A stretch of DNA of 27,039 nt, from IMG/VR virus record IMGVR_UViG_3300034175_000100, positions 1-27,039 of that record. One strand, 5' to 3'. Positions within the stretch are counted from its first letter, which is position 1. Each line of letters starts with the position of its first letter. This stretch comes from a virus. Made by a program: the position numbers and the translations under genes. Positions 1-22,497 of this stretch are shown here, one piece after another. The notes beneath the pieces were generated by a model. That model had not been told where the DNA came from. It worked only from the letters and a program-made list of their open reading frames with translations, and made no database searches.

Positions 1-458
1 AAGCCGAGGGTGAGCGAGGACTTCGTCGACGCGAACAGGTTCTGCTGCATGTCGTTGGAGTACTGGTCGGAGCCGATGATCTTGCTGAGCAGGATGTGGC
101 GGGCGAACACCCCTGCACGGGAGTCGTCGTCGAACTTCGAGATGATCTCCACGTTCGGGGTGTTCTGCACCAGGTTGCGCGCCGTACGCCGCACCAGCCC
201 CGCGGTCTCGCCGGAGCTGATGTTGGGCAGGTCGTCCTTCGGGGAGATGACCTCGCCGTCGGCCAGCTTCTCGAGGATGTCGTACTTGCCGACGCGCGCG
301 TCCATCTCCCGCTTGTAGGCGGTGTACTTCCGCGTGAGCATGTCGCCGCACGGAGAGATGTTCTTGAACTCCAGGCAGTCCCGGCGATCGTCGTGACCGT
401 AGCTCTCGTACCAGTCCTCGAACGCCCTGATGGGCTCGTGTCCCGTCTTCACTGCCAT
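1..458 (-). CDS. Portal protein, N-terminal part (truncated by window edge)
   Basis: Reading leftward from an ATG at 458, the frame stays open to base 1 (152 complete codons), so only the N-terminus is visible. A GAGGAAGG ribosome site lies about 10 bases upstream of the start. The protein begins MAVKTGHEPIRAFEDWYES and contains ISSGETAGLVRRTARNLV, then QNTPNVEIIS and a segment with Asp-Gln-Tyr-Ser-Asn-Asp-Met-Gln-Gln. The pattern of an Arg-rich helix followed by QNTPNVE is what I associate with actinophage/podovirus portal proteins, which form the dodecameric DNA gate at the capsid vertex. The start codon overlaps the end of the giant upstream gene by 10 bp, so the two are probably translated from one late transcript. 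Family assignment is by pattern recognition only; another head-neck protein is possible. Confidence 0.7.
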   Translation of the reverse strand, partial: MAVKTGHEPIRAFEDWYESYGHDDRRDCLEFKNISPCGDMLTRKYTAYKREMDARVGKYDILEKLADGEVISPKDDLPNISSGETAGLVRRTARNLVQNTPNVEIISKFDDDSRAGVFARHILLSKIIGSDQYSNDMQQNLFASTKSSLTLG

Positions 459-3400
459 TGATTCAGCCTTCCTCGCTCGGACCAGACACGTTCCCTGCGG
501 ACGTCACCGCGACGAAGGATCGGGTTGGAAGTGTTGATGAACGGAGTCGTGTTGCCGTACGGCGACTCACCCTCTGGCAACCCGTACATGCGGGTGAAGT
601 TCGCGTACTCGTTGAAGGAGGATCCGTACCCGCTGCTGCCGTAGCTGCGCTTCTTGTAGGGCTTGTAGCCACTGCCCCAGTTCTCCCATCCTGATCCGAA
701 GTCCTTCCACCCAGAGCCCGAACCCGAGCCGGTCTCAGGCATCTTCCCGGTGGTGAAGGCTTCAGGAGTACCCTCCGGCACCACGAGCTTCTCCTGGTCC
801 TCGACACGCTCAAGCGCGTGGAGTCCCACGTTGATCCCGTAGATGTCGTCGACGACCTTGCCGCGGCTGTCCCGGCTGAGCCCGGTCTGCGACTGCACCG
901 CGCGGATCGGGAGCGGGATGCCGAGCGACTGCAGCAGGTTCTGCCGACCGAACGGTGTGGCCCAGGGGCGACCGTCCGGACCCATCATGTAGGTGGTGTT
1001 CAGCTGGTTGTAGGTGACCTTGCCGGTCCACGGGATCTTGTCGTCCCACAGCACCGCGCGGAGACCGGTCGCCTCTGGGTCCTCGAAGGTGTTGCCGTAC
1101 CAGAGCCGGCGACCGCGCGACTGCGCCACCTTCAGCGACAGCCCCATGTCGATGCCGTCCTGCACGAGCTCCTGGGTCCATTTGACCTCGATCTCCTTGC
1201 GCATCGGCACGGAGATGCTGATGCCTTCGAGCGCGGGGTCTCCGAGCTTGATCATGCCCTTGGCCAGCGACGCCAGCACTCGCTCGCCACCGCGGAACGT
1301 GAGCTGTTCGTTGCCGTCGGCGTCGATGTAGCTCATGCGCCCGGCCTCGTCCGCAGCGAACGCAGCACTGGAGCCCTCGTTGAGCAGGCTCATCCCGCCA
1401 CCGAGGTTCTTGTTCGGCTGCGCAGCGTAGATCGCCTCGGCTTGGGCGGTGATGGCCGGCTGCTCCCACCACTGCCCCGCGGCCTCCGCCTTCGCCTTGA
1501 GGTCCGTCTCGATCTCGTACATCGTGAGGTTCTCGAGCCCGCCGGAGCCGGACAGGGCAGCGAGGAACGTGGCTTCGGCCAGCTCCTGTGGCTTGTCCGG
1601 GATCGTGACGCTGACCTGCGAGGGCACCATGTTCTTGCGGAAGTAGGTGCTGTCGGTGGTGACCTGGCCGGTGAACAGCGACAGGAGCAGCGACGCGCTC
1701 AGCGAGTTCTCGGCGTAGGCGTGGAGCCTGGCGTCGAGGTCGTCGCGCGCGCCGTAGCCGACACGGTTCTCGCCGGTCTCGTCGTCGCGGAACTGCTCGA
1801 GAGCGGTGGTCTCCAGCGGTGCACCGGTCAGCGGGTCGCGCTGGATCTCGCCCTGCTTGTTGATCTCCGGCAGCGTCCACGGGTTGCGGTTGTACTTGTC
1901 CATCCCGTTGCGCACGGAGTTGACGAACGAGTTCTCGAAGAGCGCCCGCTCGTACATCCCGACGGTGTTGATCAGCAGCTGCGTGACGTTGCCGTCCGAC
2001 TCGGGTGTGCCCTTCGTGTGCTCCTTCGCAGCCTCCATCATCAGCGCGTCGCCGGTGATCTCGGCCTCGCGCCACAGCCGGGTGACCGAGTTCGGGATCA
2101 TGGAGAAGGCATCGGAGAAGCCCCACTTGATGTGGCGCACGTCGCCGGTGTTGAAGAAGCGCTCGATGCCGATGACCGGCGACAGGAACTGCCGGATGAT
2201 CCAGTGCGGCTGGGCAGCAGAGCGAGCTCCACCCTCACCATCCGAGGTGACCTCGAACCACGACTCGAGCGGCCCGGGCAGCCAGTCGAGGAACCCGGAG
2301 TCCGCGTAGAGGAAGTCGTTCTCGGCGCGGCGCGGGTCGTAGTAGTACGGCGTGCCGAGGTAGGTGGCCAGACGGCGACGGCGCTTGGTCTCCTCGTCCT
2401 CACCGGAGAGGCCCAGGCCACCGGCCATCATGCCGAAGGCCATCAGCGATGAGTGGGTGATCGCGCCAGTGGTGAACGGGCGGATCAGGTCGACCGAGTC
2501 GATGACGTCGGACATGTCGATCCGGTCGTGCTGGCCGGGCACGTACTCGAGCCCGCGCATCAGCGCCTTCACCCGGCCGAGGAACTGCGACTCGCGGCCG
2601 TCGAGCATCATGGCGGCCAGCTGGTCGAAGCCGCCGACGCCGAGCATGGTGGTCAGCGCGTTGGCGTTGAAGCGGGTGAACAGGAACGGCACCTTCAACA
2701 GGTGGCCTGTGGCGTTCCAGAGGAACTTCGGGTTCGCCGTCATCGCGTCGATCCCGCCCATCACCAGCTTCCCGGACACCGTCTGCTTCATGGACCGCGT
2801 CTGCGCGATCCGGTTCAGGCCGACGGTGTGGGAGCTGACGCGACCCTCCTCGGAGTTGTCCCGGAGCCAGAGCGGGTTGCGCTCCATCTGCGCCAGGTAC
2901 ACGTCGAGCGGGATCGACGAGTCGGTGGTCATCAAGTACTGCAGCGCCGCCTCGTTGTAGCGGGCCGCGACCTGCTTGGCCAGCATCCCGAACTTCGGGT
3001 CGGAGGTGGCGGTGGCGGAGAACTTGGCGAACTTCTCCAGCCGGGTGCCGACGCCGCCGCGGCCAGCCTCGATGAGGTTCTGGTACATGAGCTGGTCGTA
3101 GACGGTGGCGAGGAAGCGGTTGTCCGCGCCCATCGCCTCGTTGAGCCGCTCGATGCGCTGCATCTGCTCGCGGGTGAATTTCGGCGTGGCCATGCCGACG
3201 CGCTCGGCAACGCCGGCCACGGCCTGGCCGACCTTGTTGGTCGACGTCCCCTGGGCCAGGTTGGTGATCCCCTCGAGCCCGTTGCGGATGAAGACCTCGA
3301 CGATGGCTGAAGTCCACAACGCCGGGTTGAGGAGCCGGATGCCGACGGAGAGGTTGATCATGTTGTGGAAGAAGGAGTGCGTGTCGCGGCTGGACTCCAG

Positions 3401-6400
3401 GTAGCGCGCGCCCCGCTCGGTGTAGTTGCGGTACGACACCTTCTCCTGCTTCTGCAGGCCCTTCTTCGATCGCCACTGCACGTGCTTCTCGATGCGCTGG
3501 GCCAGCGTCGACTCAGGTGTGGTGCGCGCCGACTCGCTGCGCGCGAGCGGGAGGTGGCCAGTGATCGCGTCGAGGGTCGCGCGCATCGTGTCGAAGATGG
3601 CGGGCTCAGCGAGGAGCGCCTCCTCCTTCGGGTCGATGGAGGTGAGGAACTGGTTCGTCTCCTTGTCCATCAGCTTCGCGTCGACCAGGGCCTCCATCGA
3701 CGCAGGCATCTCCATCGTGTGGATGGATGAGCCCTTGTAGGTGTGAGCGAAGCCGTCGTTATCGGTGCGGAAGGTGGAGTCGAACAGCTCGAGCGACTCC
3801 TCCACCTGACCGAAGATCGAGGTGACCCACTCGTCCCAGTCCTTGGCCAGCGGAGACTTGCGCTTCCGGCTGGTCTTCGGCGCCCACACACCCGCCTCGT
3901 GGATCTGACGCATCAGCGTCTCGTGCGGGATGGGGACGACGCCGCCTGAGGTGGGGATGAGGTTCTGGCTGACGTTCTCGTAGATCAGGGACGCGGCCTG
4001 GAGAGCAGCCGGCCCGGCGACCCGGCCCATGTCGGACTCGTTGGCGTTCTCCTCGCGGGCCCCGGGCATGGCGAAGAACTGCCGCACCAGGTAGTCGACC
4101 TCGTTGCGGCTCTCCCAGGTGAGACCGAGCTCGTCGAGGATGTCGGCCTGCAGGGCGGCGTACGCCGTCCGGTCGTTGTCAGACCACTCGGTCTGGTCGA
4201 TGAGCTCGAGGTACGACGTCACCTTCTTGCCGGCGTCCATGATGTGCAGACGCTGCAGCGGCATCGTCTTGGTCCACGGCTTGTACGAGGTGTCGCCCTC
4301 CGGGATGGCGCGCATCATCTCCCAGAAGCCACCGCCCGTCGGATCGGAGAACCGCTCGATGCCCTTGTCGCTGAACAGCTTGGTCGTCTCGCGGCCGTCG
4401 CGCTCGAGTGCGGTGCGTGCACCGATCGTCTCGTATCCGGTGAAGGCCACGTGCTGGCTGAAGTCCTGTCGGGTGGAGCGGACCTTCGACTGCGTGTAGT
4501 TCACGGCGTTCTCGTCGGCGGCGTACTCCAGGGACATCTGCAGCGTGGTGGCCACCCGCTCGGTGGTGCCGTTGAGCGGGTTGTTCATCTCGATGTGGAA
4601 CTGGAAGTCAGGCGTCAGCACGTACGGGCGGGAGCCATCGCTGCGCTTGGGGAACTGCGCGTTGATCCGGTCGAACAGCATGGTGCGCAGCTGCGGGTAG
4701 CCGAAGTCGTTGAGCGCGTCGGTGAAGATCGGCGGCATCAGACGCATCTGTGCACCGGACGTCAGGTCCTCCAGGTTGACCAGGCCGCTGGTGGAGAGGA
4801 CGTGCTCGAGCTGCACGCCGGGAGCGAGCAGCGCGCCGAGCATGACCTGGCCGAGCCGCTGGGTGGCGGTCACCTCGGCGAACGGGTCGTCGGTGGTCGG
4901 CGTCACGAAGCCCTTGCCGAAGATCTCCTCACCCAGCAGGTTCAGCTGGAACGCCATCTCGGCCATCATGTTGCCGTCGCCCAGGCGCTCGGCCACCATC
5001 TCTGCGGTGTAACCGAGGTTCATGTTGGACCAGCGGGTCAGGAAGGACTCGACCGCTGACCAGTCGCGGGCGAACTCGTCGGTGGTGCGGTCCTTCGCGC
5101 CGAGCATGAAGTCGACCATGTCACGGCGGAAGTCGATGCCGGACAGGGCGAAGGCCCAGCCGAAGTTGTCGATCTTCCCCTCGACGGCCTGCTTCGACTC
5201 GGGCGCCTTCTGCGACCCGAACGAGTTCACGCGGATCCCGTTGGAGCCGACGTCCTCGGCCGGGCCCGCGAGGTTGTTCGGCATCGGGGAGCGGACGGTC
5301 TTCCAGCCGTCGCCCTCGGTGACGGACTTGCCGAACCGGGACAAGTCGTACTTGACCAGGACGGACTTGCCGGCCATCTGGTCGGGGTCGACCTGCTCGA
5401 TGATCGACGGCGGCCGGACGGTCCACGCCTCCTGCAGCTCGTCGACGGCGATGGCGAACATGCCGGGGTTGGCTGCCGGGTCCGCGGGGTCGAACTCGGT
5501 GGCAAGCTGCTCCTGCAGCTGGTCGATGTTGGGCAGCTTGAACCCGACACGGACAAAGAGGATCGAGCCGTCGGTGCCGATCGTCGGGATCAGGTCACCG
5601 ATCATCAACTCCTGGCCGACCTCGAGCGGCCAGTGACCGGACTCGAGCACATCCTTCAGTCGGGTCATCGCGTCGTCCAGGCTGCGGATGCCGGGCTCCT
5701 CGAAGCCGTTGGCGTTGCGGCGGTACAGCGGCGTGCCAGTGGGGTCTCCACCGAGACGACGGAGAAGGCTGCGGCCCTCGTTGCTGTTGAGCAGGTCGAG
5801 CACGCGGTCACTGACCTCGCTGCGCTGGTCGAGCTGGCCGGTGCCCTTGACCGGCTCGCCGTAGCGGTTGGCCAGCTGGGTGGGGATGAGGGTCATCGCC
5901 TCGACCTGCCACACCGGCTGCCCATCGCGCAGGTCCCAGAAGGTGGTGTTCTCCGACGAGGCGTCACCCCACCTGTCGCTCATCGCGTTGAGGATGATGG
6001 AGCGGCCGGTGAACACCCGTGTCGCGGTGAGCGTCGACTCGAGTGAGCGGCGGGTCAGGTTGGCTGCACCCTCCACCGTCTGCGGCTCGAAGAAATGGAC
6101 CGACTCGCCCATGCGCGTGTAGCCCTCCGCGCCTTCGAGGAGGTGGTCGGCCAGGTCGGCGCGCAGCGTGGAGCCGCCGCCGGCGTGGGCGAGCACGATG
6201 CGGGCGCCGGTCTTGGTGTACGCCTTCACGGTGCGCAGCGCCTGGTTGTACGCCTGGTCGATGTCGCCCTTGGCCGCGCGCTCGATGGAGTCCAGGTCGA
6301 TGATGACCGTGTCCTCGTACGTCGGGCGCTGCCCGCCCTTCAGCGCATCGAGTCCGCCCTTCAGGACCACCTCGGTGAGGATTCCCTCGGACGGGCTGGG

Positions 6401-9400
6401 GCTGACACCTTCGACGTGCTGCCAGATCACCGACGAGGGGTTGACGTCCTCGAGCGCCTGCAGCCGCTTGGCCAGCTGCTCGGTCAGCGTGAGCTCGCGC
6501 AGGTCGCGCGCCTCGACGAACGGGATCCCGTTGCGGGCGAACAGCGTGGCGAGACCTTCGACGCCGAGCAGCTTCTCCAGGGCACGGGCGTTGCGGGCGT
6601 TGATCTCCGGGATCTTGAACCCTGGCCGGTCCTTCTCGCCACGCTCCATGCGGACCTGCATCTGCTGGCCGCGGAAGACGGAAATCCGCTGCTCGTAGGC
6701 GGTGATGCTCGGGTGGTACCTGTCACCGGACCACTTGATGTCCTGCAACGGCAGGAGGCTGGTCAGACCGACCGCTTCGCTGAGGTCGGTGGTCTCACCG
6801 AGACGAGTGAGGCCGAGCGTGGCGAGCCGCTCGTTGTCGAGGCTCGGGAACGTCTCCACATCGGAGAGGTTGAAGGGCGTCTCGATGTCCACGCCAGGGA
6901 AGCCCTTGGTGCCGGGCTTGCCGAGCAGGACCTGGGACACGGACTCGCTGATTGGCACGAGCCGGGCCCGCTGCAGCGGGAAGGCCGGGTCACTGATCCC
7001 GAGCCCTTCGTTCTCGTTCTGCCACTCGATGGCCTGCTCTGCCCACCACACGGTCTTCACGCCATCGACTTCACCGATGACGAGGTGTCGGTACTTCATC
7101 AGCTTGTACAGAGCGTTCGCATCGGCAGGCAGCGGCTTGCCGAAGTCGAACTCCTTGTTCAGCATGTGCAGTGCCTTGGACCGCAGCACCTCGGCCACGT
7201 CCGTGGAGTCCTCGTAGCCGGTGGCCGTCGACAGGAGCGGGATCGGCGTGGCCTTGTAGCCGGCGCCGCCCTTCGTCGCCATGTCGAGGGGGTTCTGCTG
7301 AGACTGCTTGGAGATCCGGCCGACACCGAAGATGGTCCCGGCGATCAGGCTCGGGGTGAGCGCGGTCTCGGAGTCTGCACCGACTCCCTCGAAGTAGACG
7401 TTGTTCGCCCACTCCGGTGCGAAGGGCTTGGAGTCCACGTCGAAGTACTGAACCTCGAGCACGAGTGGCCCGGACACAGTCCCTGCGTCGATGGCGTCGC
7501 GGATGGCACCGTTGATGCGCGCGATGTCGATGACACGGTAGGCCGAGTTCTCGACGGTGGCCTCGCCCATCCACGCTTGGCCGACCTCGGGCATCAGGTC
7601 GAGACCGTTGAGCGTGAGCGAGGCAGCGAAGTGGTTGTTGAGCCGGATGAAGTCTGCTCCGGTCCACGGTACGTTGCCATCGGCCGGCACCCCGTACTGC
7701 CGGTTGGTCAGCATCTCCGGGCCAGGCTCGTTGAAGCTGTACGCGCTGGCACCGACGTAGGCCGCGGCCTCGGTCGGCAGGTCGCCACCGACGGGGATGG
7801 CCAGGCCGACCGATGCGGAGGCGAGGATCATCTTCGCCTGGATGTTCTTGGCCGGGATGAGCTCGGTCCAGCCACCGAGCTTCTTCTCGCTGAACAGCGA
7901 GGTCTCCCAGATCCCGGCGACGTCAGCCGGGCGGACGATCGGTTCCCACTTCGCCTGGCGCGCGACCTCCTTCGCCACCTTGAGGACCTGCTTGTTGAGG
8001 AACCCGTCGAGCAGGGAGCCCCAGCTGGGGTCGAAGTAGCGGTGCTGCTCGGCCGCCCCCTTGCCCAGCACCAGCGGGGTGATGTCGACGGTGGAGCCGG
8101 CACGGCCAGAGAGCTCGGCGAGGTAGAGCGTCGAGGCCCACAGTCCGGCCTCCTCCCACTCCTCGGTGGTGATGGCCACGTCGTCGTCGATGGCGAAGCC
8201 GTTCTGCGCTAGCGTCTCGTTGATCTTGTTGATCAGCCGGTAGTTGCCCTGGAACCGGTTGAGCCGGTTCGCGGTACCGAGGAAGCGCATGATCATCGAC
8301 TTGCGGTCGAGGTCGACCTCGGTGCCGGTGAGCCGGAACATGTTGATCGCGGCCTGCACCGGGTCGGAGTCACGCAGCAGATCGAGCCGGTCGACTCGTG
8401 CGAGCACCTCACGGTTCAGGGTGTCGAGCCGGGTCTGGATCCGCACGCGCAGACCGGCGTCCAGGTTGGGGTCGGCCAGCTGGGCGAGCAGCTCCTCGGA
8501 GCGACGGACGAACAGGTTCGTCGCAGCATCCACGACCAGCACGTCGTCGATCGCCTTCGTGGTCTGCGACGCCAGGACGTTGCGCAGGCCCGAGTTGTCC
8601 CTGGTGTAGCGACCTCGCAGGTTCGCCTTGATGATGGTGACGACCTCCTCGAGGAGACCACCACCCTGCTTGTCGAGCGCGGCCGCCAGCTGGATACCGC
8701 GGGCCACGTCGACGTAGAGGTCGTTGCGGACTGCATCAAGGTTGGCGCCCCGGTCGAATGCACCGTGGGTGTACGCCACGGCGAACTCGTTGATCATCGT
8801 CTGGATCGGGAAGTACGCCTCGGCCTGCGTCGCTTCGTCGGTGTCGATGGCCGCCTTGCGGACACCGGCCTCGATGGTGGCGATGTACTTGTGCGCCTGG
8901 CGCAGCGACAGCTGCCGGTCGACGCCGGTGAACAGGTCCTTGAAGTCCACCTCGTCGAGCATCGTCTTGAGGCCGGTGCCGGTGGTGCTCCGGTAGGACT
9001 GCACGGTGTCGTGCTCATTGACGTCGCGCTCGGTGGGGAACAGCACCCGCTTGGCCAACTCGTTGGTGGCCGGGTTCTCGAGTGCGTCGAGCGCACCCTC
9101 CTCGGTGGAGAGGTCGACGAATACTTCGGACCCGTCCGGTAGGTTCACGCGCACCGGGCCCTCGGCCAGCTTCGTCGGGTTCGACATGATGTCGGGGATG
9201 TCGAAGACCGTCAGGGCGTCGGCGGTCTGGAAGATCGCCTGCTTGACTCCGAACTCGTCCATCGTCACGAGCGGCTCACCGAACGGGGCGACGTCCGGGT
9301 CGGACTTGCCCTTGTCGTGCATCCGGGCGAAGCCGGTCTGGATCTTCGCGGTGAACCGGTCACGCGCGCGGGGGCCGTTGCCGTCGGGGAACAGGACCCG

Positions 9401-12400
9401 GTTCTCGATCGCCAGCTTCAGCTTCGCCCGGTTCCGGGTGCCGTCGGCAGTGCGGCCGGCACGCATCTCCGCGATCATCGTGCGCTCGGTCGCCAACTCG
9501 GTGGCGTGCTTGGCCATCGCTACCGACAGGGCGCGCGTCTTGTCGGCGAAGTTGGACAGCGCCTCCCGCTGCAGGGTGCCGGGCAGGTTCGCCGACCACA
9601 CCTCGGACGGGTCGGCGTCGTACTCGGCCACGTCGTCGAACAGCGGCAGCAGCTCGGCACGGTCACCGAGCCACATCGGCTCCGAGTTGATCTGGTCCAT
9701 CAGCGCCTTGACGTCGGTGGCCGTCTTCATGGCGATGATCAGCCGGTCGAGCTCGATACCGTCCGGCTGCTGGCTGACGTGGTAGAAGGTCTGGAGCATC
9801 CGCGACTTGATCTTGGAGTAGATCCGGCCGCCGGGCTCCGCGCCCATCGCGTTCCACTCCGCGAGCCACGAATTCGTCAGGTACGAGACCGCGGCCTGCT
9901 CGGGTGGGAGCACCAACATCTCGGTGACCCACTTCGCGGCGTACACCTGGCCGTCGATCTCGGCGAAGGCACCGAGCTTCGCGGCGTCCGGGATGATCTT
10001 GGAGATGATCCCGGCCAGCTGCGGGTTCTGCTCCAGCATCTGGTTGAGCAGGATCTCCTTGTCGGTCTTCTTGTTCGCGCCCGTCTGCTGGCGGAACGTC
10101 TCGAGCATCTCCTGGAGCTGGTCGACACCGGCCTTGAACTCGGCCAGGGCGCGCTCGGAGCGGGCTTTCTTGTCGCGGGGAGCGACCTGCACCGCGGCCG
10201 CGATCGTGTCGATGACCACCGCGTAGTCGTTCAGCTCGGCCGACGTCGCCTCAGCCACGGAGTACGGCGGGTTGTGCTTGACCGAGTGCATGACGTACGG
10301 CGCCTTGCGACGCCACTTCCACAGCTGGTCGCGCCGGGTCTCCTCGGTATGGTTCGCCAGGGAGTTGATCACCTGGGACAGCGTCAACTGCGGCCCGATG
10401 TAGCGGGAGGCGTCACCGATCAGGTCGTACATCTGCGTCGACCCAAAAACCTCCGCGAACGCCAGCTGGGCGCTGGTGTCACGGCTGCCCTGTGTGTGGT
10501 CGTGGTTCGCCAGGCGCTTCAGCCGGCCAATCTTCCGCAGCAACTCGTCGTCCTGCTCGATGGTCGCAGCATTGGAGCGCTCCTCGATCTCGATGGACCG
10601 CTTCAGCAGCAGCTGGACCAGGGAGATGTTGCCGTCGCCCATCAGGTACTCGCCGGGCGCCAGCACCTGCACGTCACGGACCTGCATGTTCGCCAGGCGC
10701 ATCATCGCGGACGACGCGTCCTCGCCCAGCGCCTCCTTCGCGGCGTTGCTGATGTCCTGCATCCACAGCTGCACGCGCTTCTGGATCGCGTTGCGGCCGC
10801 GGACCCGGGCCATCTCGCTGGCCGGCATGTTCGAGCCGAGCTGAGCGTAGAGCTCGACGAACGCCTGGATCTCACCGGGCAGCATGTCGCCGCGCAGGGC
10901 GTCGACCGCGGCACGGTAGATGGAGTAGTGGAGCTTCTGGCTCTCGCGCACAGGGTTCACACCCTGCAGCAGGATGCTGACCGTCTGGCCGTCGGTCGCT
11001 GCACCGCGCACCGCGAGCGCCCGGAGGAACGCCTGCTCGGGTGGGAGGTCACGCTCCACATCGGCGGGGGTGAACTCGAGCTCGGGGGCGTTGGCCGCCA
11101 AGTCCTGCTGGATCATCTCCCACGTCAAAGAGATCTGCTGCTGCAGCCACGGCACCTCCGCCACACCGTTGCGGCGGCCGAGGTCCAGCATCCCGGCGGT
11201 GTTGAGGTTGAAGAGCGTGGTGATCAGGTTCATCCGGGCATCGACGATGCCGTCGGTCACCTCGCGCTCGAACGTGGTCAGTGCACGGGTGAGGGCGTCG
11301 GCCTCGAGGATCGGGGAGTACCGGTTCCACAGGTCAGTGCGCAGCTCGGCCAGGCCCGCGGCCGCGACGTTTCGCTCCACCGAGCCGGTCTTCCCGGCCA
11401 GGGCCCCCGCGATCGTGGCGATGAAGAGCTTCTCGCCGTCCGGCGGGTCCGAGACGACCTCGACACCGGCTCGGGACTCCATGATCGGGTTGCCGTCCGC
11501 ATCCTGACCGATCTCCACGTCCTCGTTCACCGACGGGAGGAACTGCGCGCCGGCACGCAGGAGCTCGCGCTGCTCGGTGGGAAGCGTGACCGTGTTCATC
11601 GGTGCCAGGGTGTCGCCGTCGTGGTCGCCGCCGAGCGACTTCAGGATCGACTGGTGCACCTGCACCTGCCCGTTGGCGTTGGCCGCGCTGAGGGACTTGG
11701 ACACCTGGGGGATCAGCGGCATGAACGAGCCCGGGTCGATGTTCGGGTGCCGGGTGTAGAGGATCTCCACCGAGCGACGCAGCGTCTCGGCGTCCGAGAG
11801 AGGTGCACCGCTCGCGTCCGTGAGCTCACCGCGGTGGGCCCGGAGGATCAGGTCGTTGAAGTCGTCGATCAGGGCCTCGGCCGTGACGGTGTCCGTCGCC
11901 TGGCGGTACCGCTCGTAGATGTCCTGCAGTGCGGCGCGCACCGACTTGGACACACGGGCCACGGTCTCGTTCTCCGCGATCTCCCGCTGCAGCTGCGCCA
12001 CCATCTCCGGCTGATCCTGGGCCTGCTCGAGGCGACGGTTCAGGTCGGCGTCGATGACGGCCATGCCCGCGTGTAGGTCGACGATGCTGGAGAGGGTCTG
12101 CCACATCGAGGCGACCGCGTGGTTCGCCGCGAACAGGTCCCGATCCATCCGGCCGTTGCCGTCGTAGACCTTGTCGCCCGAGAAGCCTGCCAGCACGAGG
12201 GTGCCGTCGACGGCCGGGTTCGCCGACGCCGAGTCGCGCGCCATCGCGCTGGCCCGCATGTCGATCCGCGCCATCGTCCCGATCGGGGAGACCCGCGCCG
12301 AGTCGATCTGCGACTTCTCCGCCATCGTGGTCAGCGCGTCCTTGATGCGCTGCGTCTCGACGTCATCGGCCAGCGCCGCCCGCTTCCGGGCGTCCGGGGT

Positions 12401-14311
12401 CAGCGCCTTCCACTGCTCCTCGGTCATCGACTGGCCGTGACGCATCTCGTGCAGGAGGAACGCCCGCGACTTCAGTACCTGGTCGTTGCTGGGCGGCCGG
12501 CTCACGGCACCGAGGCTCATGCCCGCACCGGACGCCGCGCCGTACAGGCCAGCCTCGAACACGGCGTGCGGGTCGATGTTCGCGTCGACGGAGATCGGCT
12601 CGAGCACCGCCTGCACCGCTTCCTCCGCACCTTCCGCCCAGCCGTTGACGATGGCCTGGCCGATGCGGTTGCCGCCGGCCATCTCCACTGCGGCCCGGTA
12701 GTAGTCGTCCGGGCCGATGGAGCCCGATGACAGCGCCACCCGGTTCCGTGCACGCCAGGCCGTCGGGGCCCAGCGCAGGAACTCGGACGGCGCCATGATC
12801 GTCATGGACGTGCCAGCGGTGATGGCCTTGCCCTCGGCGTTGAGGCCGAAGCGCATCCCGTTGATCGTCTGTCGGGAGACGACCTCGGAGTTGCGCCACG
12901 GCATCAGCTTCTCGCCCGCGTTGCGGATCGTCTCCGTCAGCCGGTTCGGCACTGCGCCCTCGGTGGCGAACGCCGCCCGGCTGGCTGCACCGGCACGGCC
13001 GATCGCGCCTGCGAACCCGATCTGGACGACGTCGATACCGACGGAACCGATCGCGGCCGCCCACTGCTTGCCACCCTCGATGTCGTGGAAGCCGGCGATG
13101 CGGTCGTCCCACTTCTCCCCGGTGCTGGCCATCGTGGCGACGGAGCCCGTCACGTGCCCGGTGGTCCCGGCCATGTACAGCCCGATGCCCACCGGGTTCG
13201 AGAACTGCAGCACGGAGTCGGCCAGGGTGCCCGCGACGTCCGCGCCGCGCACCCACTTGTTCGCCTTCCGCTTGCCGTCGTCGTCGACCGCGTAGAACTC
13301 GGAGTTGCCGTCACCCACCTCACCGGCGTGGGCGTCGAAGCTGCCCTGCACCAGGTTGCTCACCGGGTTGATGGTGCGCAGCGCCACCCCGCTGAACTCG
13401 CTGAGTCCGGTCGTGAAGCCCTGGAACTCGCCGTACTTCTTGTTCGCCAGGGAGGAGACCTCCAGCGCGCGTGCCGTCTGCTCGGTCAGCTGGTCCTTGT
13501 TCAGGTACGCCGCACCACCACCGACGATGGCACCACCGAGACCGAACAGCAATGCACCGGGGCCCGTCCACGAACCTGCGACCGTGGCGGCCGTACCAGC
13601 GGTCAGGGCCGCACCACCCACGGCAGCGGCACCGGTGAGGAGCTCGTCGCCGCTGCCCTCGATCAGTTCCTGCTGGCGCTCCTCGACGTTCTCGCCGAAC
13701 GCCTTCTGCGCCTTGGAGTTCGTCATCAGTTCCGTGTTCGCGGAGATGACCTTGTCGACCTCGTCCCCGAGCCAGCGGTCACGGTCGGGGTCCGCGAAGA
13801 TCTTCTGCTTCGTCTTCCCGTCGAGCGTGAACTCCGCCATCATCACGTTCGCCGTGCGGGCGTCGAAGTCGGAGTAGATGTTGCCGACCTTCTTGCCGTC
13901 GTTGAAGACGTCCCCGCGGACGATGCCCTTCTTCTCGTCGTCCCACGTCGAGACACCCGTGGCATCGGGGCGGTCGAACCAGTTGTAGAAGACCGTGGCG
14001 TCTCGCTCCTCCATCGCCTGGTCCTGCATCTCGGAGAACTGCTTGAACGCCTCGGCCTGGAAGCCGGTGTCCCAGGAGTTCGAGACACCCTCCATGTTGG
14101 CGCCGGCGTACCAGGACTTCGCCGCTCCGACGTAGCCGACCTCCGGCTGGGTGACGTACGACCCGAGCAGTGATTCCGAGAAGCGGCCCTCGCCGGTGGC
14201 GACGTCGTTCGCCTGCTCAGCGACCTGGCCCAGACCGCGGGGAATGGCGGGGTTGGAGGTCTGCTTGTTGACGATGCTGTCTGAGAACCGGCCGCCAGTC
14301 TCGTCCGCCAC
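449..14311 (-). CDS. Giant 4620-aa virion-type protein with a two-barrel RNA polymerase DxDGD signature
   Basis: An uninterrupted 13.9-kb frame. I prefer the GTG at 14311: a GGAG lies 6 bases upstream, whereas the upstream TTG at 14323 has no good ribosome site and directly follows an in-frame TAG. Visible parts (GTG numbering): a repeated motif GRFS[DE]S at 7-12 and 42-47; a Gly/Ala-rich hydrophobic stretch at about 224-270 and further hydrophobic segments to about 450; a charged, probably coiled helix region near 770-830; GGDHDGDTLAP with Asp896, Asp898 and Asp900; long unassigned domains; a hydrophobic segment near 3935-3965; and a Gly/Ser/Trp/Tyr-rich linker near 4525-4575. DxDGD, preceded by VQVH with nine residues between His and the first Asp, matches the catalytic Mg2+ loop of beta-prime-like polymerases. 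Inference: an internal protein ejected with the DNA that carries its own RNA polymerase. No protease, lysozyme or Walker motif was recognised. The second barrel and its lysines could not be assigned. It lies directly upstream of the portal gene. Confidence 0.9.
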   Translation of the reverse strand: MADETGGRFSDSIVNKQTSNPAIPRGLGQVAEQANDVATGEGRFSESLLGSYVTQPEVGYVGAAKSWYAGANMEGVSNSWDTGFQAEAFKQFSEMQDQAMEERDATVFYNWFDRPDATGVSTWDDEKKGIVRGDVFNDGKKVGNIYSDFDARTANVMMAEFTLDGKTKQKIFADPDRDRWLGDEVDKVISANTELMTNSKAQKAFGENVEERQQELIEGSGDELLTGAAAVGGAALTAGTAATVAGSWTGPGALLFGLGGAIVGGGAAYLNKDQLTEQTARALEVSSLANKKYGEFQGFTTGLSEFSGVALRTINPVSNLVQGSFDAHAGEVGDGNSEFYAVDDDGKRKANKWVRGADVAGTLADSVLQFSNPVGIGLYMAGTTGHVTGSVATMASTGEKWDDRIAGFHDIEGGKQWAAAIGSVGIDVVQIGFAGAIGRAGAASRAAFATEGAVPNRLTETIRNAGEKLMPWRNSEVVSRQTINGMRFGLNAEGKAITAGTSMTIMAPSEFLRWAPTAWRARNRVALSSGSIGPDDYYRAAVEMAGGNRIGQAIVNGWAEGAEEAVQAVLEPISVDANIDPHAVFEAGLYGAASGAGMSLGAVSRPPSNDQVLKSRAFLLHEMRHGQSMTEEQWKALTPDARKRAALADDVETQRIKDALTTMAEKSQIDSARVSPIGTMARIDMRASAMARDSASANPAVDGTLVLAGFSGDKVYDGNGRMDRDLFAANHAVASMWQTLSSIVDLHAGMAVIDADLNRRLEQAQDQPEMVAQLQREIAENETVARVSKSVRAALQDIYERYRQATDTVTAEALIDDFNDLILRAHRGELTDASGAPLSDAETLRRSVEILYTRHPNIDPGSFMPLIPQVSKSLSAANANGQVQVHQSILKSLGGDHDGDTLAPMNTVTLPTEQRELLRAGAQFLPSVNEDVEIGQDADGNPIMESRAGVEVVSDPPDGEKLFIATIAGALAGKTGSVERNVAAAGLAELRTDLWNRYSPILEADALTRALTTFEREVTDGIVDARMNLITTLFNLNTAGMLDLGRRNGVAEVPWLQQQISLTWEMIQQDLAANAPELEFTPADVERDLPPEQAFLRALAVRGAATDGQTVSILLQGVNPVRESQKLHYSIYRAAVDALRGDMLPGEIQAFVELYAQLGSNMPASEMARVRGRNAIQKRVQLWMQDISNAAKEALGEDASSAMMRLANMQVRDVQVLAPGEYLMGDGNISLVQLLLKRSIEIEERSNAATIEQDDELLRKIGRLKRLANHDHTQGSRDTSAQLAFAEVFGSTQMYDLIGDASRYIGPQLTLSQVINSLANHTEETRRDQLWKWRRKAPYVMHSVKHNPPYSVAEATSAELNDYAVVIDTIAAAVQVAPRDKKARSERALAEFKAGVDQLQEMLETFRQQTGANKKTDKEILLNQMLEQNPQLAGIISKIIPDAAKLGAFAEIDGQVYAAKWVTEMLVLPPEQAAVSYLTNSWLAEWNAMGAEPGGRIYSKIKSRMLQTFYHVSQQPDGIELDRLIIAMKTATDVKALMDQINSEPMWLGDRAELLPLFDDVAEYDADPSEVWSANLPGTLQREALSNFADKTRALSVAMAKHATELATERTMIAEMRAGRTADGTRNRAKLKLAIENRVLFPDGNGPRARDRFTAKIQTGFARMHDKGKSDPDVAPFGEPLVTMDEFGVKQAIFQTADALTVFDIPDIMSNPTKLAEGPVRVNLPDGSEVFVDLSTEEGALDALENPATNELAKRVLFPTERDVNEHDTVQSYRSTTGTGLKTMLDEVDFKDLFTGVDRQLSLRQAHKYIATIEAGVRKAAIDTDEATQAEAYFPIQTMINEFAVAYTHGAFDRGANLDAVRNDLYVDVARGIQLAAALDKQGGGLLEEVVTIIKANLRGRYTRDNSGLRNVLASQTTKAIDDVLVVDAATNLFVRRSEELLAQLADPNLDAGLRVRIQTRLDTLNREVLARVDRLDLLRDSDPVQAAINMFRLTGTEVDLDRKSMIMRFLGTANRLNRFQGNYRLINKINETLAQNGFAIDDDVAITTEEWEEAGLWASTLYLAELSGRAGSTVDITPLVLGKGAAEQHRYFDPSWGSLLDGFLNKQVLKVAKEVARQAKWEPIVRPADVAGIWETSLFSEKKLGGWTELIPAKNIQAKMILASASVGLAIPVGGDLPTEAAAYVGASAYSFNEPGPEMLTNRQYGVPADGNVPWTGADFIRLNNHFAASLTLNGLDLMPEVGQAWMGEATVENSAYRVIDIARINGAIRDAIDAGTVSGPLVLEVQYFDVDSKPFAPEWANNVYFEGVGADSETALTPSLIAGTIFGVGRISKQSQQNPLDMATKGGAGYKATPIPLLSTATGYEDSTDVAEVLRSKALHMLNKEFDFGKPLPADANALYKLMKYRHLVIGEVDGVKTVWWAEQAIEWQNENEGLGISDPAFPLQRARLVPISESVSQVLLGKPGTKGFPGVDIETPFNLSDVETFPSLDNERLATLGLTRLGETTDLSEAVGLTSLLPLQDIKWSGDRYHPSITAYEQRISVFRGQQMQVRMERGEKDRPGFKIPEINARNARALEKLLGVEGLATLFARNGIPFVEARDLRELTLTEQLAKRLQALEDVNPSSVIWQHVEGVSPSPSEGILTEVVLKGGLDALKGGQRPTYEDTVIIDLDSIERAAKGDIDQAYNQALRTVKAYTKTGARIVLAHAGGGSTLRADLADHLLEGAEGYTRMGESVHFFEPQTVEGAANLTRRSLESTLTATRVFTGRSIILNAMSDRWGDASSENTTFWDLRDGQPVWQVEAMTLIPTQLANRYGEPVKGTGQLDQRSEVSDRVLDLLNSNEGRSLLRRLGGDPTGTPLYRRNANGFEEPGIRSLDDAMTRLKDVLESGHWPLEVGQELMIGDLIPTIGTDGSILFVRVGFKLPNIDQLQEQLATEFDPADPAANPGMFAIAVDELQEAWTVRPPSIIEQVDPDQMAGKSVLVKYDLSRFGKSVTEGDGWKTVRSPMPNNLAGPAEDVGSNGIRVNSFGSQKAPESKQAVEGKIDNFGWAFALSGIDFRRDMVDFMLGAKDRTTDEFARDWSAVESFLTRWSNMNLGYTAEMVAERLGDGNMMAEMAFQLNLLGEEIFGKGFVTPTTDDPFAEVTATQRLGQVMLGALLAPGVQLEHVLSTSGLVNLEDLTSGAQMRLMPPIFTDALNDFGYPQLRTMLFDRINAQFPKRSDGSRPYVLTPDFQFHIEMNNPLNGTTERVATTLQMSLEYAADENAVNYTQSKVRSTRQDFSQHVAFTGYETIGARTALERDGRETTKLFSDKGIERFSDPTGGGFWEMMRAIPEGDTSYKPWTKTMPLQRLHIMDAGKKVTSYLELIDQTEWSDNDRTAYAALQADILDELGLTWESRNEVDYLVRQFFAMPGAREENANESDMGRVAGPAALQAASLIYENVSQNLIPTSGGVVPIPHETLMRQIHEAGVWAPKTSRKRKSPLAKDWDEWVTSIFGQVEESLELFDSTFRTDNDGFAHTYKGSSIHTMEMPASMEALVDAKLMDKETNQFLTSIDPKEEALLAEPAIFDTMRATLDAITGHLPLARSESARTTPESTLAQRIEKHVQWRSKKGLQKQEKVSYRNYTERGARYLESSRDTHSFFHNMINLSVGIRLLNPALWTSAIVEVFIRNGLEGITNLAQGTSTNKVGQAVAGVAERVGMATPKFTREQMQRIERLNEAMGADNRFLATVYDQLMYQNLIEAGRGGVGTRLEKFAKFSATATSDPKFGMLAKQVAARYNEAALQYLMTTDSSIPLDVYLAQMERNPLWLRDNSEEGRVSSHTVGLNRIAQTRSMKQTVSGKLVMGGIDAMTANPKFLWNATGHLLKVPFLFTRFNANALTTMLGVGGFDQLAAMMLDGRESQFLGRVKALMRGLEYVPGQHDRIDMSDVIDSVDLIRPFTTGAITHSSLMAFGMMAGGLGLSGEDEETKRRRRLATYLGTPYYYDPRRAENDFLYADSGFLDWLPGPLESWFEVTSDGEGGARSAAQPHWIIRQFLSPVIGIERFFNTGDVRHIKWGFSDAFSMIPNSVTRLWREAEITGDALMMEAAKEHTKGTPESDGNVTQLLINTVGMYERALFENSFVNSVRNGMDKYNRNPWTLPEINKQGEIQRDPLTGAPLETTALEQFRDDETGENRVGYGARDDLDARLHAYAENSLSASLLLSLFTGQVTTDSTYFRKNMVPSQVSVTIPDKPQELAEATFLAALSGSGGLENLTMYEIETDLKAKAEAAGQWWEQPAITAQAEAIYAAQPNKNLGGGMSLLNEGSSAAFAADEAGRMSYIDADGNEQLTFRGGERVLASLAKGMIKLGDPALEGISISVPMRKEIEVKWTQELVQDGIDMGLSLKVAQSRGRRLWYGNTFEDPEATGLRAVLWDDKIPWTGKVTYNQLNTTYMMGPDGRPWATPFGRQNLLQSLGIPLPIRAVQSQTGLSRDSRGKVVDDIYGINVGLHALERVEDQEKLVVPEGTPEAFTTGKMPETGSGSGSGWKDFGSGWENWGSGYKPYKKRSYGSSGYGSSFNEYANFTRMYGLPEGESPYGNTTPFINTSNPILRRGDVRRERVWSERGRLNQWQ

Positions 14312-14357
14312 GTGGAGCTCCAACCACTACTGCCGCGGCCCGACGCCGACGAACAGG

Positions 14358-14516: not shown

Positions 14517-14590
14517 TGAGGGGTCAAGGGGGTCTTCACCTTGCACGTTCTCGGCCAACGCCTAAGTTGTGAAAACTTTTCCGAGTGGTA

Positions 14591-14720
14591 CCAATATATA
14601 CAAAATAAACAAACAACACACTATATACCCCTTATATATATATATATATATGTATATATAAGGCAGCTCTATATGTAATTTGTAGTTTGTTAAGTTTGTT
14701 TCATTTGTGATTTTGGAATT
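14591..14720. other. AT-rich island in the divergent hub
   Basis: I count 30 G/C in these 130 bases (23%), inside a genome that otherwise looks well above 60% GC. The left part contains TAAACAAACAA, the right part has repeated TTTGT and GTTTGTTT, giving rough dyad symmetry around the TA palindrome at 14630-14663. An easily melted segment between divergent genes fits a DNA-unwinding element of an origin, an early promoter region, or both. It contains many TATA-like hexamers, so no single -10 box can be picked. Confidence 0.7.
14630..14663. repeat. (TA)n palindrome, 34 bp
   Basis: Arms CCTTATATATA (14630-14640) and TATATATAAGG (14653-14663) are perfect complements. The 12 bases between them are also alternating TA with a single G. 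The whole element can extrude as a cruciform, and its length may vary between isolates by slippage. Confidence 0.85.
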
Positions 14721-14750
14721 TCCAGGATCCTACCAGTCGGAGGTTCAGTT

Positions 14751-15068
14751 ATGACTCAGTACCAGCAAGGTATGACGTCTCGTGACATGCTTCAGTCCAT
14801 CGCATTCGATCGCCTCACATCCAAGTCGGATGACGGCAAGCTCGAAGCCATGATGCTCACCGATCTCGGTACTGCCAGTGCAGTCAACATCGGCAAGGCC
14901 GTGGACTCGTCCATCATCCGCTCTGTCCAGGCAGCTGAGTCGCTCGTCGCTCTCGGCTACGACAAGTCCGATCCCATCGTCCAGTCTCTGATGGAGTCCG
15001 GTAACGCTGTGCGTGCCACGCTCCAGAAGATCGGTGATGTCATCCCTGGTCTGCTGTCTCAGCACTAG
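14751..15068 (+). CDS. Isolated 105-aa protein of unknown function, probably highly expressed
   Basis: The ATG at 14751 follows GGAGG with a 7-base spacer. The predicted protein is short, soluble, acidic to neutral and mostly helical by eye, without Cys, membrane segments or a recognised motif; a helical stretch around SAVNIGKAVDSSIIRSV is typical of it. The gene stands alone: an AT-rich promoter-like island upstream, and an intrinsic terminator 6 bases after its stop. Its codons use GGT, CGT and TCT more than the neighbouring genes. These points suggest a strongly transcribed monocistronic unit, for example an immediate-early host-takeover protein or an abundant DNA-associated protein, but the sequence does not decide this. 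Confidence 0.8.
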   Translation: MTQYQQGMTSRDMLQSIAFDRLTSKSDDGKLEAMMLTDLGTASAVNIGKAVDSSIIRSVQAAESLVALGYDKSDPIVQSLMESGNAVRATLQKIGDVIPGLLSQH

Positions 15069-15460: not shown

Positions 15461-15719
15461 GTAGTCACGTAGTCACCGTGTAGTCACCCCGGGTGACTAC
15501 ACCTCGAGACACTGTTTCCGCAGGTCAGAGGCCTGCGGCCGCCAATGTAGTCACGTAGTCACCCAAACTGGGGAAACTTCCTGAGATCTCTCAGCTAAAG
15601 TTTCCCTGTTTTGGGTGACTACGTGACTACATCGGGGGTTGCAAGCCTCTGACCTGCAGGTTTGATGTAGTCACCCTGTAGTCACCCTCCCATGCAGGGT
15701 GACTACATGTGCTGACTAC
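15461..15719. repeat. Array of GTAGTCAC sites (iteron-like), 11 exact copies
   Basis: Forward copies start at 15461, 15469, 15480, 15547, 15555, 15667 and 15678; inverted copies (GTGACTAC) start at 15493, 15615, 15623 and 15699; a 7-of-8 inverted copy ends at 15719. Three pairs are back-to-back with exact 8-base period (15461/15469, 15547/15555, 15615/15623). Most copies are followed by CC (or preceded by GG when inverted). The copies form palindromes: 12-bp arms around one base at 15478-15502, and 14-bp arms at 15665-15678/15695-15708. This looks like a binding array for one protein, as in replication origins, partition sites or multi-site promoters. It is not CRISPR. Confidence 0.9.
15520..15657. 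repeat. 138-bp nested palindrome
   Basis: Four perfect arm pairs are nested around one centre: 13 bp (15520-15532 / 15645-15657, GCAGGTCAGAGGC), 23 bp (15545-15567 / 15610-15632, containing two GTAGTCAC copies), 9 bp (15571-15579 / 15598-15606, GGGAAACTT) and 6 bp (15581-15586 / 15589-15594, CTGAGA), with short unpaired gaps. In total 51 bp pair on each side. Such a structure can form a large cruciform in DNA or a long hairpin in RNA. Confidence 0.9.
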
Positions 15720-18974: not shown

Positions 18975-19445
18975 ATGTTCAAGACCAACATCCTCGTGGG
19001 CGAGCGTGTCCTCGTCAGCGGCACCGACGTCACCGGCGAGTCCGGCAAGACCATCGTCGACGCCACGCAATGGAACGAGCTCGCCCTCCGCAAGGACGTG
19101 AGCAAGGCCACCGCCGACTTCGACGCAGCAGTCGAGGCGTTCTACGCCCCGCTCACGGACGCCGCTGACGCGGCCGAGCAGGCGTTCAAGGGCAACAAGC
19201 CCGACGACGCCTCGGCGTACGTCGTGATCCAGGAGGAGGTGCCGGCCACCCCCGGCCAGGTCGGACACACCGTCCGCCTGACCAGGGACTCGGTCATCCT
19301 GCGCCTCATCGAGGAGGGCAACACCGACCGCCTCGTGTGGGTCGACGACCAGCTCGAGGTTCTCGAGGTCCTGCCCAACACCAGCACGTCTGCTGCGGTC
19401 GTCACCTCTGGTGACCCGCACGCCGACGAGCTCGTCGAGAGCTGA
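18975..19445 (+). CDS. Unknown protein, 156 aa
   Basis: ATG at 18975 with the strong leader GGGAGATCCAC, nearly identical to that of the coiled-coil gene at 17215. The protein is acidic, with a central alanine-rich helix (DFDAAVEAFYAPLTDAADAA) and a beta-rich second half (HTVRLTRDSVILRLIEEG; DRLVWVDDQLEVLEVL). Its Thr/Ser/Ala-rich C-terminus looks disordered. No family recognised. A perfect 14-bp hairpin follows, so it probably forms its own transcript end. Confidence 0.75.
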   Translation: MFKTNILVGERVLVSGTDVTGESGKTIVDATQWNELALRKDVSKATADFDAAVEAFYAPLTDAADAAEQAFKGNKPDDASAYVVIQEEVPATPGQVGHTVRLTRDSVILRLIEEGNTDRLVWVDDQLEVLEVLPNTSTSAAVVTSGDPHADELVES

Positions 19446-19454
19446 CCAACGGTT

Positions 19455-19488
19455 GAGCGGCAGCACCCCGCCCAGGGTGCTGCCGCTC
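19455..19488 (+). terminator. 14-bp perfect hairpin between the 156-aa gene and the MoxR gene
   Basis: GAGCGGCAGCACCC (19455-19468), loop CGCCCA, GGGTGCTGCCGCTC (19475-19488): no mismatch. Only TT follows. It begins 10 bases after a stop codon and lies about 50 bases before the next start. Likely a terminator or transcript-stability element. Confidence 0.7.
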
Positions 19489-19539
19489 TTCGGCAGTACG
19501 GACCACCGACAACTCACTCTTTCAAGGGAAGGATCGCAC

Positions 19540-20490
19540 ATGCTCGAGAAGATCCTCAAGCTGTACGTGATGTACATGGCCGCCGATGTGCGGTCACCTC
19601 TGCCCCACCTGGTGGGGCCACCCGGCTGTGGCAAGTCCACAGCCGTGGAGCAGGCAGCCCAACTGCTCGGCGTCAACCTCCACATCATCAACGTCTCTCG
19701 GCTGTCGCCTCTCGAGATCGAGGGGGTGCAGATGCCACACGGTACGGGGGAGGAGATGGTGCTGCGCATGTTGCCGGCCACCTTCTGGACCAGCCTGAAG
19801 GACGGCGACATCCTGTTGCTCGACGAGTTCCTTCGGGGATTCCCCGAGGTCTACAACGGGCTGCTCGACATCCTCACGTCCAGGCGTGTGGGTGCCTTCG
19901 TCCTGCCGAAGGTGTTCATCATCGGTGCGTCCAACAGCACGGTGGCTTATGACCCCGCGCTCGAGGACAGACTGATCCACCTGCCGGTCAACGACCCGCG
20001 CACCAACAAGAAGCACAAGGCCGTGCTGGCACAGCTCATCGTCGATGGGCTGGGTCTCAACCCGATCATGGTCAACCACCAGGAGATGCACTCGTTGCTC
20101 GACACGGTGGTGCTGCCCATGTTCGATGTGCTCGACGCCTTCAAGAAGAAGGGCACGACACCGTCACCGGTGAAGGGCAAGTCGATCCGCAACCTGATCG
20201 GGCAAGCCCTGCTTCGTGAGGTGGAGACCACCGAGCTGGCCGAGCTCATCTCGATGAACAACCGAGAGACCATCAACTCGGCGAAATGGCAGTACATGTT
20301 CCTGCTGTCCGGCAAGAACGTCGATCCCCGCTACACAGCGGTGATCCCCAAGATTCCTCGGGACAAGCTGACTCCGCTGCAGCTCACCAACCTGCAGCTC
20401 AACGAGCAGTTGCTCCAGATGGAAGCGATCCGCAACGAGAAGGAAGGAACCGAAGAAGATGACGATGACCCGTTCACAGATCTCGGCTGA
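19540..20490 (+). CDS. MoxR-type AAA+ ATPase, 316 aa
   Basis: I place the start at ATG 19540 (leader AAGGGAAGGATCGCAC) rather than further upstream, where the frame would run through the 14-bp hairpin. Walker A is GPPGCGKST (26-34), Walker B ILLLDE (91-96), sensor 1 IIGASN (127-132), and the arginine-finger region LEDRL (141-145). The short N-terminus and this motif order fit the MoxR/RavA family, which acts as a ring-shaped ATPase remodelling a client, usually together with a von Willebrand factor A protein. Such a protein is encoded next, overlapping by 32 bp. The C-terminus ends in a Glu/Asp-rich tail (EGTEEDDDDPF). Phage pairs like this are known but their client is not; ordinary replication or anti-defence roles are both possible. 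Confidence 0.85.
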   Translation: MLEKILKLYVMYMAADVRSPLPHLVGPPGCGKSTAVEQAAQLLGVNLHIINVSRLSPLEIEGVQMPHGTGEEMVLRMLPATFWTSLKDGDILLLDEFLRGFPEVYNGLLDILTSRRVGAFVLPKVFIIGASNSTVAYDPALEDRLIHLPVNDPRTNKKHKAVLAQLIVDGLGLNPIMVNHQEMHSLLDTVVLPMFDVLDAFKKKGTTPSPVKGKSIRNLIGQALLREVETTELAELISMNNRETINSAKWQYMFLLSGKNVDPRYTAVIPKIPRDKLTPLQLTNLQLNEQLLQMEAIRNEKEGTEEDDDDPFTDLG

Positions 20491-21415
20491 CCTCGAGATC
20501 TTCGAGGTCAAGCCCGGTCTGAAGTTCGCTCTCACCACACTGAAGGCGCTGTTGCCTGACGTCGAGACCCTGCTGTTCTTCGGCAAGGTCTACGAGCTGG
20601 ACGTGTACCAGCTCTCCGCTCTGCTGGCCAAGATGTTCGCCGGCCACAACCTCGTCGACGAGTTGCAGTCCGGTGCACACAGCACCGACCTGCAGGACTA
20701 CATCGTCGACGACCTCTGTCCCGAGCTCTGGAATCTAGAGGCTGGCGAGGTCGAGTTCGCACCCGACGTCGCCAAGGGGGAGATCCTCCCGGAGGTGTGG
20801 AAGTCGCTCGAGGTGGAGGTCGCTGCCTCCATCAAGGCGGTGGCTGCCAAGCTCCAGGACATGGTCGGTCTGATGCCCGGCAAGCAGGGCAGCATGGTGT
20901 TCCGGTCGATGATGACCATGAACGCCAAACGTCCGACGATCGGTCAGTACAAGGCGGCGGTGCACCACGCACCGAAGCCCGACAACCTGATCATCTTCGA
21001 CGTGTCCGGCTCGATGGGTGAGCGCCTCGTCCAGACCCTGGTCGACGACGTGGTGGCCATGTCCTACATGGCCAACGCCCACCTGGCGATCGTGTCCAAC
21101 ACGACCACCCATTGGGAGCCTGGCTCCTACGACAGCGCCTCCGTGCTGGCGGCCGCCGAGTTCGGTGGCACGCAGTACGAGACGCTGGCCCCGCTCCTCG
21201 AGCGGGACTGGGGTGTCGTGGTCACGGTCGCTGACTACGACTCGTCGGCCAGCGCGCGGGACTTCATCGCGCGTAACTGCCGCGGTTCGATCGAGCAGGT
21301 GCTGGACATCAGCCTGGTCAACCGGCCGACGTTCCTGGCTGAGTGCGTGGGCCAGCTCGCCAACGAGGTCCGTCCGGTCCTCGTGGCAACGGGCAGCTAC
21401 GTGCTGAGCAACTGA
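20459..21415 (+). CDS. VWA-domain protein, MoxR partner, 318 aa
   Basis: ATG at 20459 lies inside the end of the ATPase gene (32-bp overlap), with GGAAGGAAC upstream; a second in-frame ATG is at 20465. The MIDAS metal site is visible: FDVSGSMG with Asp181, Ser183 and Ser185, and GGTQYETL with Thr238, the usual third MIDAS loop. A helical N-terminal region of about 170 residues precedes the VWA domain. VWA proteins adjacent to MoxR ATPases deliver or bind the client protein through a Mg2+/Ca2+-bridged contact. The overlap suggests coupled translation in fixed ratio. Confidence 0.85.
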   Translation: MTMTRSQISADLEIFEVKPGLKFALTTLKALLPDVETLLFFGKVYELDVYQLSALLAKMFAGHNLVDELQSGAHSTDLQDYIVDDLCPELWNLEAGEVEFAPDVAKGEILPEVWKSLEVEVAASIKAVAAKLQDMVGLMPGKQGSMVFRSMMTMNAKRPTIGQYKAAVHHAPKPDNLIIFDVSGSMGERLVQTLVDDVVAMSYMANAHLAIVSNTTTHWEPGSYDSASVLAAAEFGGTQYETLAPLLERDWGVVVTVADYDSSASARDFIARNCRGSIEQVLDISLVNRPTFLAECVGQLANEVRPVLVATGSYVLSN

Positions 21416-21418
21416 ACC

Positions 21419-21529: not shown

Positions 21530-21556
21530 TACACCCTGGCCGATCGGCAGGTAAGA

Positions 21557-21644: not shown

Positions 21645-21675
21645 GGAGTTCCGACCAAACAAGAAGGAGCCCATC

Positions 21676-22480: not shown

Positions 22481-22497
22481 CAGGGATACAACGGCCA

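Follow-up and report, generated by a model that had tools for sequence, protein, structure and literature searches.

We analysed a 27-kb virus record from IMG/VR (IMGVR_UViG_3300034175_000100, positions 1 to 27,039; the window), whose minus strand encodes a giant protein of some 4,600 residues. This protein is very probably a virion protein that carries a two-barrel DNA-dependent RNA polymerase (RNAP), homologous to the cellular beta' and beta subunits, and that is ejected to serve the early genes. Conservation, motif homology and a fold match for each half were shown by computation. According to the models, the order of the two double-psi beta-barrels (DPBB) is beta' (DPBB-A) and then beta (DPBB-B), about 2,100 residues apart, which reverses that of the known single-chain two-barrel polymerases. 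The DPBB-A-then-DPBB-B arrangement is collinear across the full-length homologues aligned. The gene and its first catalytic elements are located as follows.

449..14323, minus strand: gene of the giant protein, 4624 amino acids (aa) from a TTG codon, or 4620 aa from the likelier GTG start at 14309-14311.
11612..11626, minus strand: DHDGD, aa 900-904, the predicted metal-binding Asp triad, invariant in 29 of 29 sequences; its profile matches phage beta' at the same motif.
11744..11752, minus strand: R858-x-P860, the proposed equivalent of the beta' R-x-P (NRAPT in E. coli), invariant in 29 sequences and aligned to the phiKZ and AR9 beta'.

The GTG lies four codons downstream of the TTG and is preceded by GGAG. 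Residues are counted from the TTG; D900, D902 and D904 are thus the Asp896, Asp898 and Asp900 of an earlier note on this DNA, which had proposed the polymerase. That note read GGDHDGDTLAP from the minus strand at 11612-11626 and VQVH upstream of it, with exactly nine residues between the His and the first Asp. Both readings hold, the former within the open reading frame 449-14323. The V-x-V-H with its H-x9 spacing had been taken as support for a polymerase, and this part fails because the His varies among homologues (LQVGHG, LQVSQA, SKVSQS). By itself, DHDGD could be a chance match. When the giant protein is shuffled, 10% of the copies contain D-x-D-G-D (0.05% contain H-x9-D-x-D-G-D), and hence the motif alone proves little.

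The conservation of the motif is more informative. A tblastn search yielded relatives of the giant protein in 51 phage records at about 25% identity, nearly all from Microbacterium podophages (cluster EK, Burro, Araxxi), together with Arthrobacter phage MissAmericana. Scans of IMG/VR from full-length alignments added about 25 further homologous contigs; the same scan with the giant protein as a single query found no relatives, and the alignment of 17 cores offered no segment of sufficient conservation for such a scan. Collinear homologues of about 4,400-4,860 aa are present in more than 25 phages or contigs. D-x-D-G-D is kept at the equivalent place in every homologue covering the region, with the variants GDWDGD, GDFDGD, HDNDGD, ADTDGD and QDNDGD. 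The 29 homologues aligned over the DHDGD segment come from divergent phages (Microbacterium cluster EK, Burro, IMG/VR contigs); they agree without exception in an Arg, a Pro, a Ser, the three Asp and the Gly of DGD, and in one Gly further on. Loss of the Asp residues in homologues, which the earlier note named as a result that would speak against its proposal, was not seen. Across about 1,000 aligned residues of 17 cores only 22 columns are invariant, and seven of them are R858, P860, S866, D900, D902, G903 and D904. The R-x-P and the Ser are conserved about 35-45 residues upstream of the Asp triad. An R-x-P ahead of DxDGD can also be read from the sequences of E. coli rpoC (NRAPT), of gp96 (FRNP) and gp64 (NRRP) of P23-45, and of phi14:2 gp66 (YRIP).

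A profile of aa 838-960 was compared with all PDB chains. The first three distinct matches were to PHIKZ055 of the phiKZ non-virion RNAP (E 0.0017) and to the RNAP beta' of AR9 (E 0.003). The stretch aligned with these two starts at R-x-P, includes DxDGD and is about 54 residues long. Weaker matches to Rpa1, cyanobacterial gamma and Thermus beta' rank below them in the same search. Counted by the members that match, two PHROG families named 'RNA polymerase beta subunit' come out on top (best E 3.6e-5).

11093..12214, minus strand: beta'-like core with DPBB-A, aa 704-1077, from the AlphaFold2 model and VIA-align; the barrel itself is predicted at about aa 704-925.

The N-terminal AlphaFold2 model covers aa 620-1760 and was built from 26 homologues (predicted local distance difference test, pLDDT, 77; predicted template modelling score, pTM, 0.49). 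Strands flank DHDGD on both sides. In VIA-align, 50 of the 50 matches listed are of the beta'/Rpb1 type with Z 9.9-10.7, and the shorter alignments comprise about 240 residues at 4.5-5.4 A. The model maps to E. coli beta' 344-637 or Thermus beta' 622-947. A 919-aa open frame on the plus strand (window 9317-12076) is antisense to the stretch that encodes the polymerase; it is probably an artefact of the high G+C coding sequence.

The second barrel was located by its lysines.

4496..6025, minus strand: beta-like region, aa 2767-3276, from the AlphaFold2 model, Foldseek and VIA-align.
5129..5629, minus strand: DPBB-B barrel, aa 2899-3065, with G2909-D2910, from conservation and the model; hhalign sets 'VGQELMIGDLIP' on beta 'GAEVTGGDILVGK' with a score that alone is not significant.
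5327..5329, minus strand: K2999, the proposed equivalent of E. coli beta K1065.
5300..5302, minus strand: K3008, the proposed equivalent of beta K1073.
5192..5194, minus strand: K3044, at the place of beta R1106 (PSRMN).

The three lysines are each invariant in both alignments, of 24 and of 26 homologues, and their equivalents are taken from hhalign, which also puts G2909-D2910 on beta GDILVGK. Only 11 columns of aa 2640-3420 are invariant in 24 homologues, and three of them are K2999, K3008 and K3044. Their setting is G-D-[IL]-I-P, followed by G(D/N)K-x8-G-x-K and then S-K, which resembles GDILVGK, GDKMAGRHGNK and PSRMN of beta. The segment aa 2640-3420 was picked beforehand by this pattern of invariant Lys, and the prediction of a beta fold was recorded ahead of the structure result. 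The AlphaFold2 model of the segment (24 homologues) has a mean pLDDT of 78. Foldseek against 350,542 PDB chains gave RNAP beta/Rpb2-type chains in 50 of the 50 matches listed (best E 3.8e-4, probability 0.99). The VIA-align Z reaches up to 7.5, which is middling; because VIA-align only re-ranks the Foldseek list, it is the uniformity of that list that carries weight for the beta match. In a viral structure library, the homologues of Burro and TinyTimothy came up first, followed by beta subunits from DNA viruses of eukaryotes.

Two other places for the beta-type residues were considered and rejected. A DPBB-B upstream of or near DHDGD is unsupported, as aa 401-1400 contain no invariant Lys in the 17 aligned cores. 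K1671 ('HDKGK', window 9311-9313) lies about 770 residues past DHDGD, and in 26 aligned homologues this Lys is invariant and the next Gly nearly so. It was dropped as the beta lysine, since the model of aa 620-1760 has no beta-type match there and that of aa 2640-3420 has one.

The proposal of a single-chain two-barrel RNAP within the giant protein is thus supported by the invariant Asp triad, by the profile match to phage beta' and by two models that match beta' and beta. In the earlier note, both barrels had been expected within residues 300-2300; the second is found at about 2900-3065, outside that range and in reversed order. Because both sets of catalytic residues are invariant, we infer that the two halves form one active site. 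In it, DPBB-A would supply the Mg2+-binding Asp triad and the arginine of R-x-P, and DPBB-B would supply K2999 and K3008, which would hold the 3' region of the RNA.

Several results weigh against this interpretation. The two halves (aa 620-1760 and aa 2640-3420) were modelled separately, and a further barrel in aa 1-619 or 1761-2639 is conceivable. A Pfam search of the giant protein and 17 homologous cores gave no polymerase family. The Pfam models of beta (PF00562) and beta' (PF00623) had zero matches in 29 records, and plain hidden Markov models are therefore too insensitive here. With the window protein alone, the PHROG search reaches only E 0.29. Foldseek with the model of aa 620-1760 is weak, with beta' at rank 2 and E 0.19, and the VIA-align result for this half only re-ranks the Foldseek list. 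For the C-terminal barrel, the hhalign comparison with beta is not significant by score; this and the other hhalign scores, likewise weak, served for alignment position only. The C-terminal alignment profiles gave no RNAP in the PDB. A bridge helix or trigger loop was looked for in aa 1080-1260, without a convincing match to rpoC, gp64, gp96, gp66 or YonO.

Where the enzyme would act is suggested by its gene and by work on a relative. In related phages, the giant gene is the first of the virion operon, with the portal gene right behind it and the capsid genes near by, and is divergent from the replication genes. Virions of Burro gave a gel band of about 250 kDa, a protein that the authors assigned to gp27 or to a product of its processing (PMC7302621). 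The same paper calls the role of the giant gp27-type protein 'unclear', saw no motifs of the N4 virion RNAP, and reports that this enzyme has no similarity or common motifs with these giant proteins (Jacobs-Sera et al.; PMC7302621). In the open-licence papers, we found no literature that names the giant proteins as RNAPs. An ejected virion RNAP is favoured because of the gene position, the Burro virion band and the precedent of P23-45 gp96. Upon ejection, the giant polymerase probably passes into the cell together with the DNA, where it would transcribe the first phage genes, the divergent early ones, either ahead of the host polymerase or independently of it. Burro gp27 has 4491 aa, roughly 490 kDa, and the 250-kDa band is about half of this. 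If the band is half of gp27, one may speculate that cleavage takes place between the barrels. The chances are evenly balanced that a reverse-order beta'/beta fusion is made as a single virion polypeptide of 4,600 residues; maturation may then sever it between the barrels, in which case a two-piece enzyme would be ejected and come together again in the cell.

Alternatively, the two-barrel RNAP could be made in the infected cell and serve middle or late genes instead of being packaged and ejected. Besides it, the window contig encodes nothing recognisable as a polymerase for late genes, and the virion location comes from a single gel of one relative, not backed by mass spectrometry. We nevertheless consider this unlikely, as the gene opens the virion operon right before the portal gene, the giant protein has hydrophobic Gly-rich stretches, the Burro virions contain a very large protein attributed to the homologue (PMC7302621) and the P23-45 precedent is a virion RNAP. 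A catalytically dead relic of a polymerase, retained for a structural role or for ejection (as an internal core or in the manner of a tape measure), would fit the 'tape measure protein' label of some homologues in GenBank and the better conservation of the C-terminal third relative to the polymerase part. Such a relic would lose its catalytic residues, yet neither the Asp triad nor any of the three lysines varies where their surroundings drop below 20% identity. The phages are also podoviruses in whose published annotations no tape measure protein is recognised, and this explanation is very unlikely.

The barrels could also belong to another double-psi-barrel enzyme such as a PolD-like DNA polymerase, because PolD has two such barrels in common with RNAPs (PMC4996933, PMC10770324). 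The best structural matches are beta' and beta, not PolD, and the phage already encodes a family A DNA polymerase; we regard this origin as highly improbable. Least credible of all is that DHDGD is a chance acidic loop, e.g., a Ca2+-binding one, in an unrelated helical protein. The frequency of DxDGD in shuffled proteins leaves room for it, but the invariance together with R-x-P over 29 homologues, the PDB profile matches and both fold matches stand against it, and the conservation and the fold matches already contradict it.

The RNAP read here in the giant protein has a precedent in gp96 of the Thermus phage P23-45, in which an RNAP inside a 5,002-aa virion protein transcribes the pre-early genes and was recognised from the same motif (PMC10770324). 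The size of the window protein is therefore not a record for a virion protein with an RNAP. Like gp96, with its two-barrel RNAP near the N-terminus, the window protein would be a giant RNAP-bearing virion protein. In gp96, DFDGD at 779-783 is preceded by R-x-P, and there is almost no sequence similarity to known RNAPs. Both of its barrels, unlike those of the window protein, fall within aa 327-1124, with B ahead of A, and the RNAP is fused to a siphovirus tape measure. The window protein has A first and B about 2,100 residues on, and its relatives are podoviruses of actinobacteria. The beta' N-terminal subunit of the multisubunit RNAPs of the jumbo phages phiKZ and AR9 is the closest by profile around R-x-P...DxDGD, whereas the window protein has both halves on one chain. 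Like phi14:2 gp66 of a crAss-like phage, it would be a virion two-barrel RNAP on one chain with an R-x-P before the acidic motif; gp66 differs in its 2,180 aa and B-A order, with no detectable profile similarity to the giant family. YonO (SPbeta) and QDE-1 are also single-chain two-barrel polymerases with a DxDGD-type motif, but small, non-virion and of B-A order (PMC5467207, PMC10770324). Single-chain two-barrel enzymes with solved structures run from DPBB-B through a connector to DPBB-A (PMC10770324). From the models, the giant protein would work like YonO, QDE-1, gp66 and gp96; we do not file it in their clade, as its predicted order is A then B.

N4 virion RNAP is likewise a very large podovirus protein and serves as an analogy for a polymerase carried in the virion. 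It has a T7-like single-subunit fold without double-psi barrels. T7-like polymerases were not among the PDB sequence matches or fold matches listed, an absence that is no proof.

The largest protein of these short-tailed phages of soil actinobacteria thus gains a candidate role as an RNAP, which is testable directly in the culturable laboratory phages Burro, Akoni, ArMaWen and MissAmericana. If true, it would add a divergent branch to the two-barrel RNAPs and show that their barrels may also be fused the other way round and at a great distance from each other. It would also suggest that podoviruses of Gram-positive hosts begin transcription with a packaged enzyme.

Other parts of the giant protein are conserved as well.

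12611..12637, minus strand: A-E-G-x-E-E-x-x-Q beside a Gly-rich hydrophobic stretch, N-terminal to the polymerase, with E564, E567, E568 and Q571 invariant in 17 aligned homologues.

This motif and the Gly-rich stretch are possibly an ejection or membrane part. The C-terminal third (e.g., GLGLSGEDEE...YDPRR...NDF and YNQLNTTYMMGPDGRPWATPF; window 2099-2446 and the C-terminal ~200 aa) shows higher conservation than the polymerase parts and probably functions in virion assembly or docking. In GenBank, MissAmericana gp30 (L002 10977-24281) and Araxxi gp27 (L004 19813-33297) are labelled 'tape measure protein', yet the Burro and cluster EK relatives are podoviruses, and the label looks like a misnomer.

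Outside the giant gene, eleven copies of GTAGTCAC/GTGACTAC, direct and inverted, lie at window 15461-15706 between the divergent transcription units, with 0.8 expected in the whole window. In L009, L027, L032, L035, L047 and L050, comparable repeat clusters precede the giant gene by 1-1.5 kb. The repeats are candidate replication-origin iterons or phage promoters. An intergenic block at 14561-14740 contains a TA run and up to 85% A+T in a contig of 64% G+C. It adjoins the upstream side of a small plus-strand open reading frame (14751-15068), divergent from the giant gene, and is possibly an early promoter region. The divergent plus-strand cluster at 19411-25424 encodes an AAA ATPase (19411-20490), a PD-(D/E)XK/DUF2800 nuclease (22573-23280) and the family A DNA polymerase (22845-25424).
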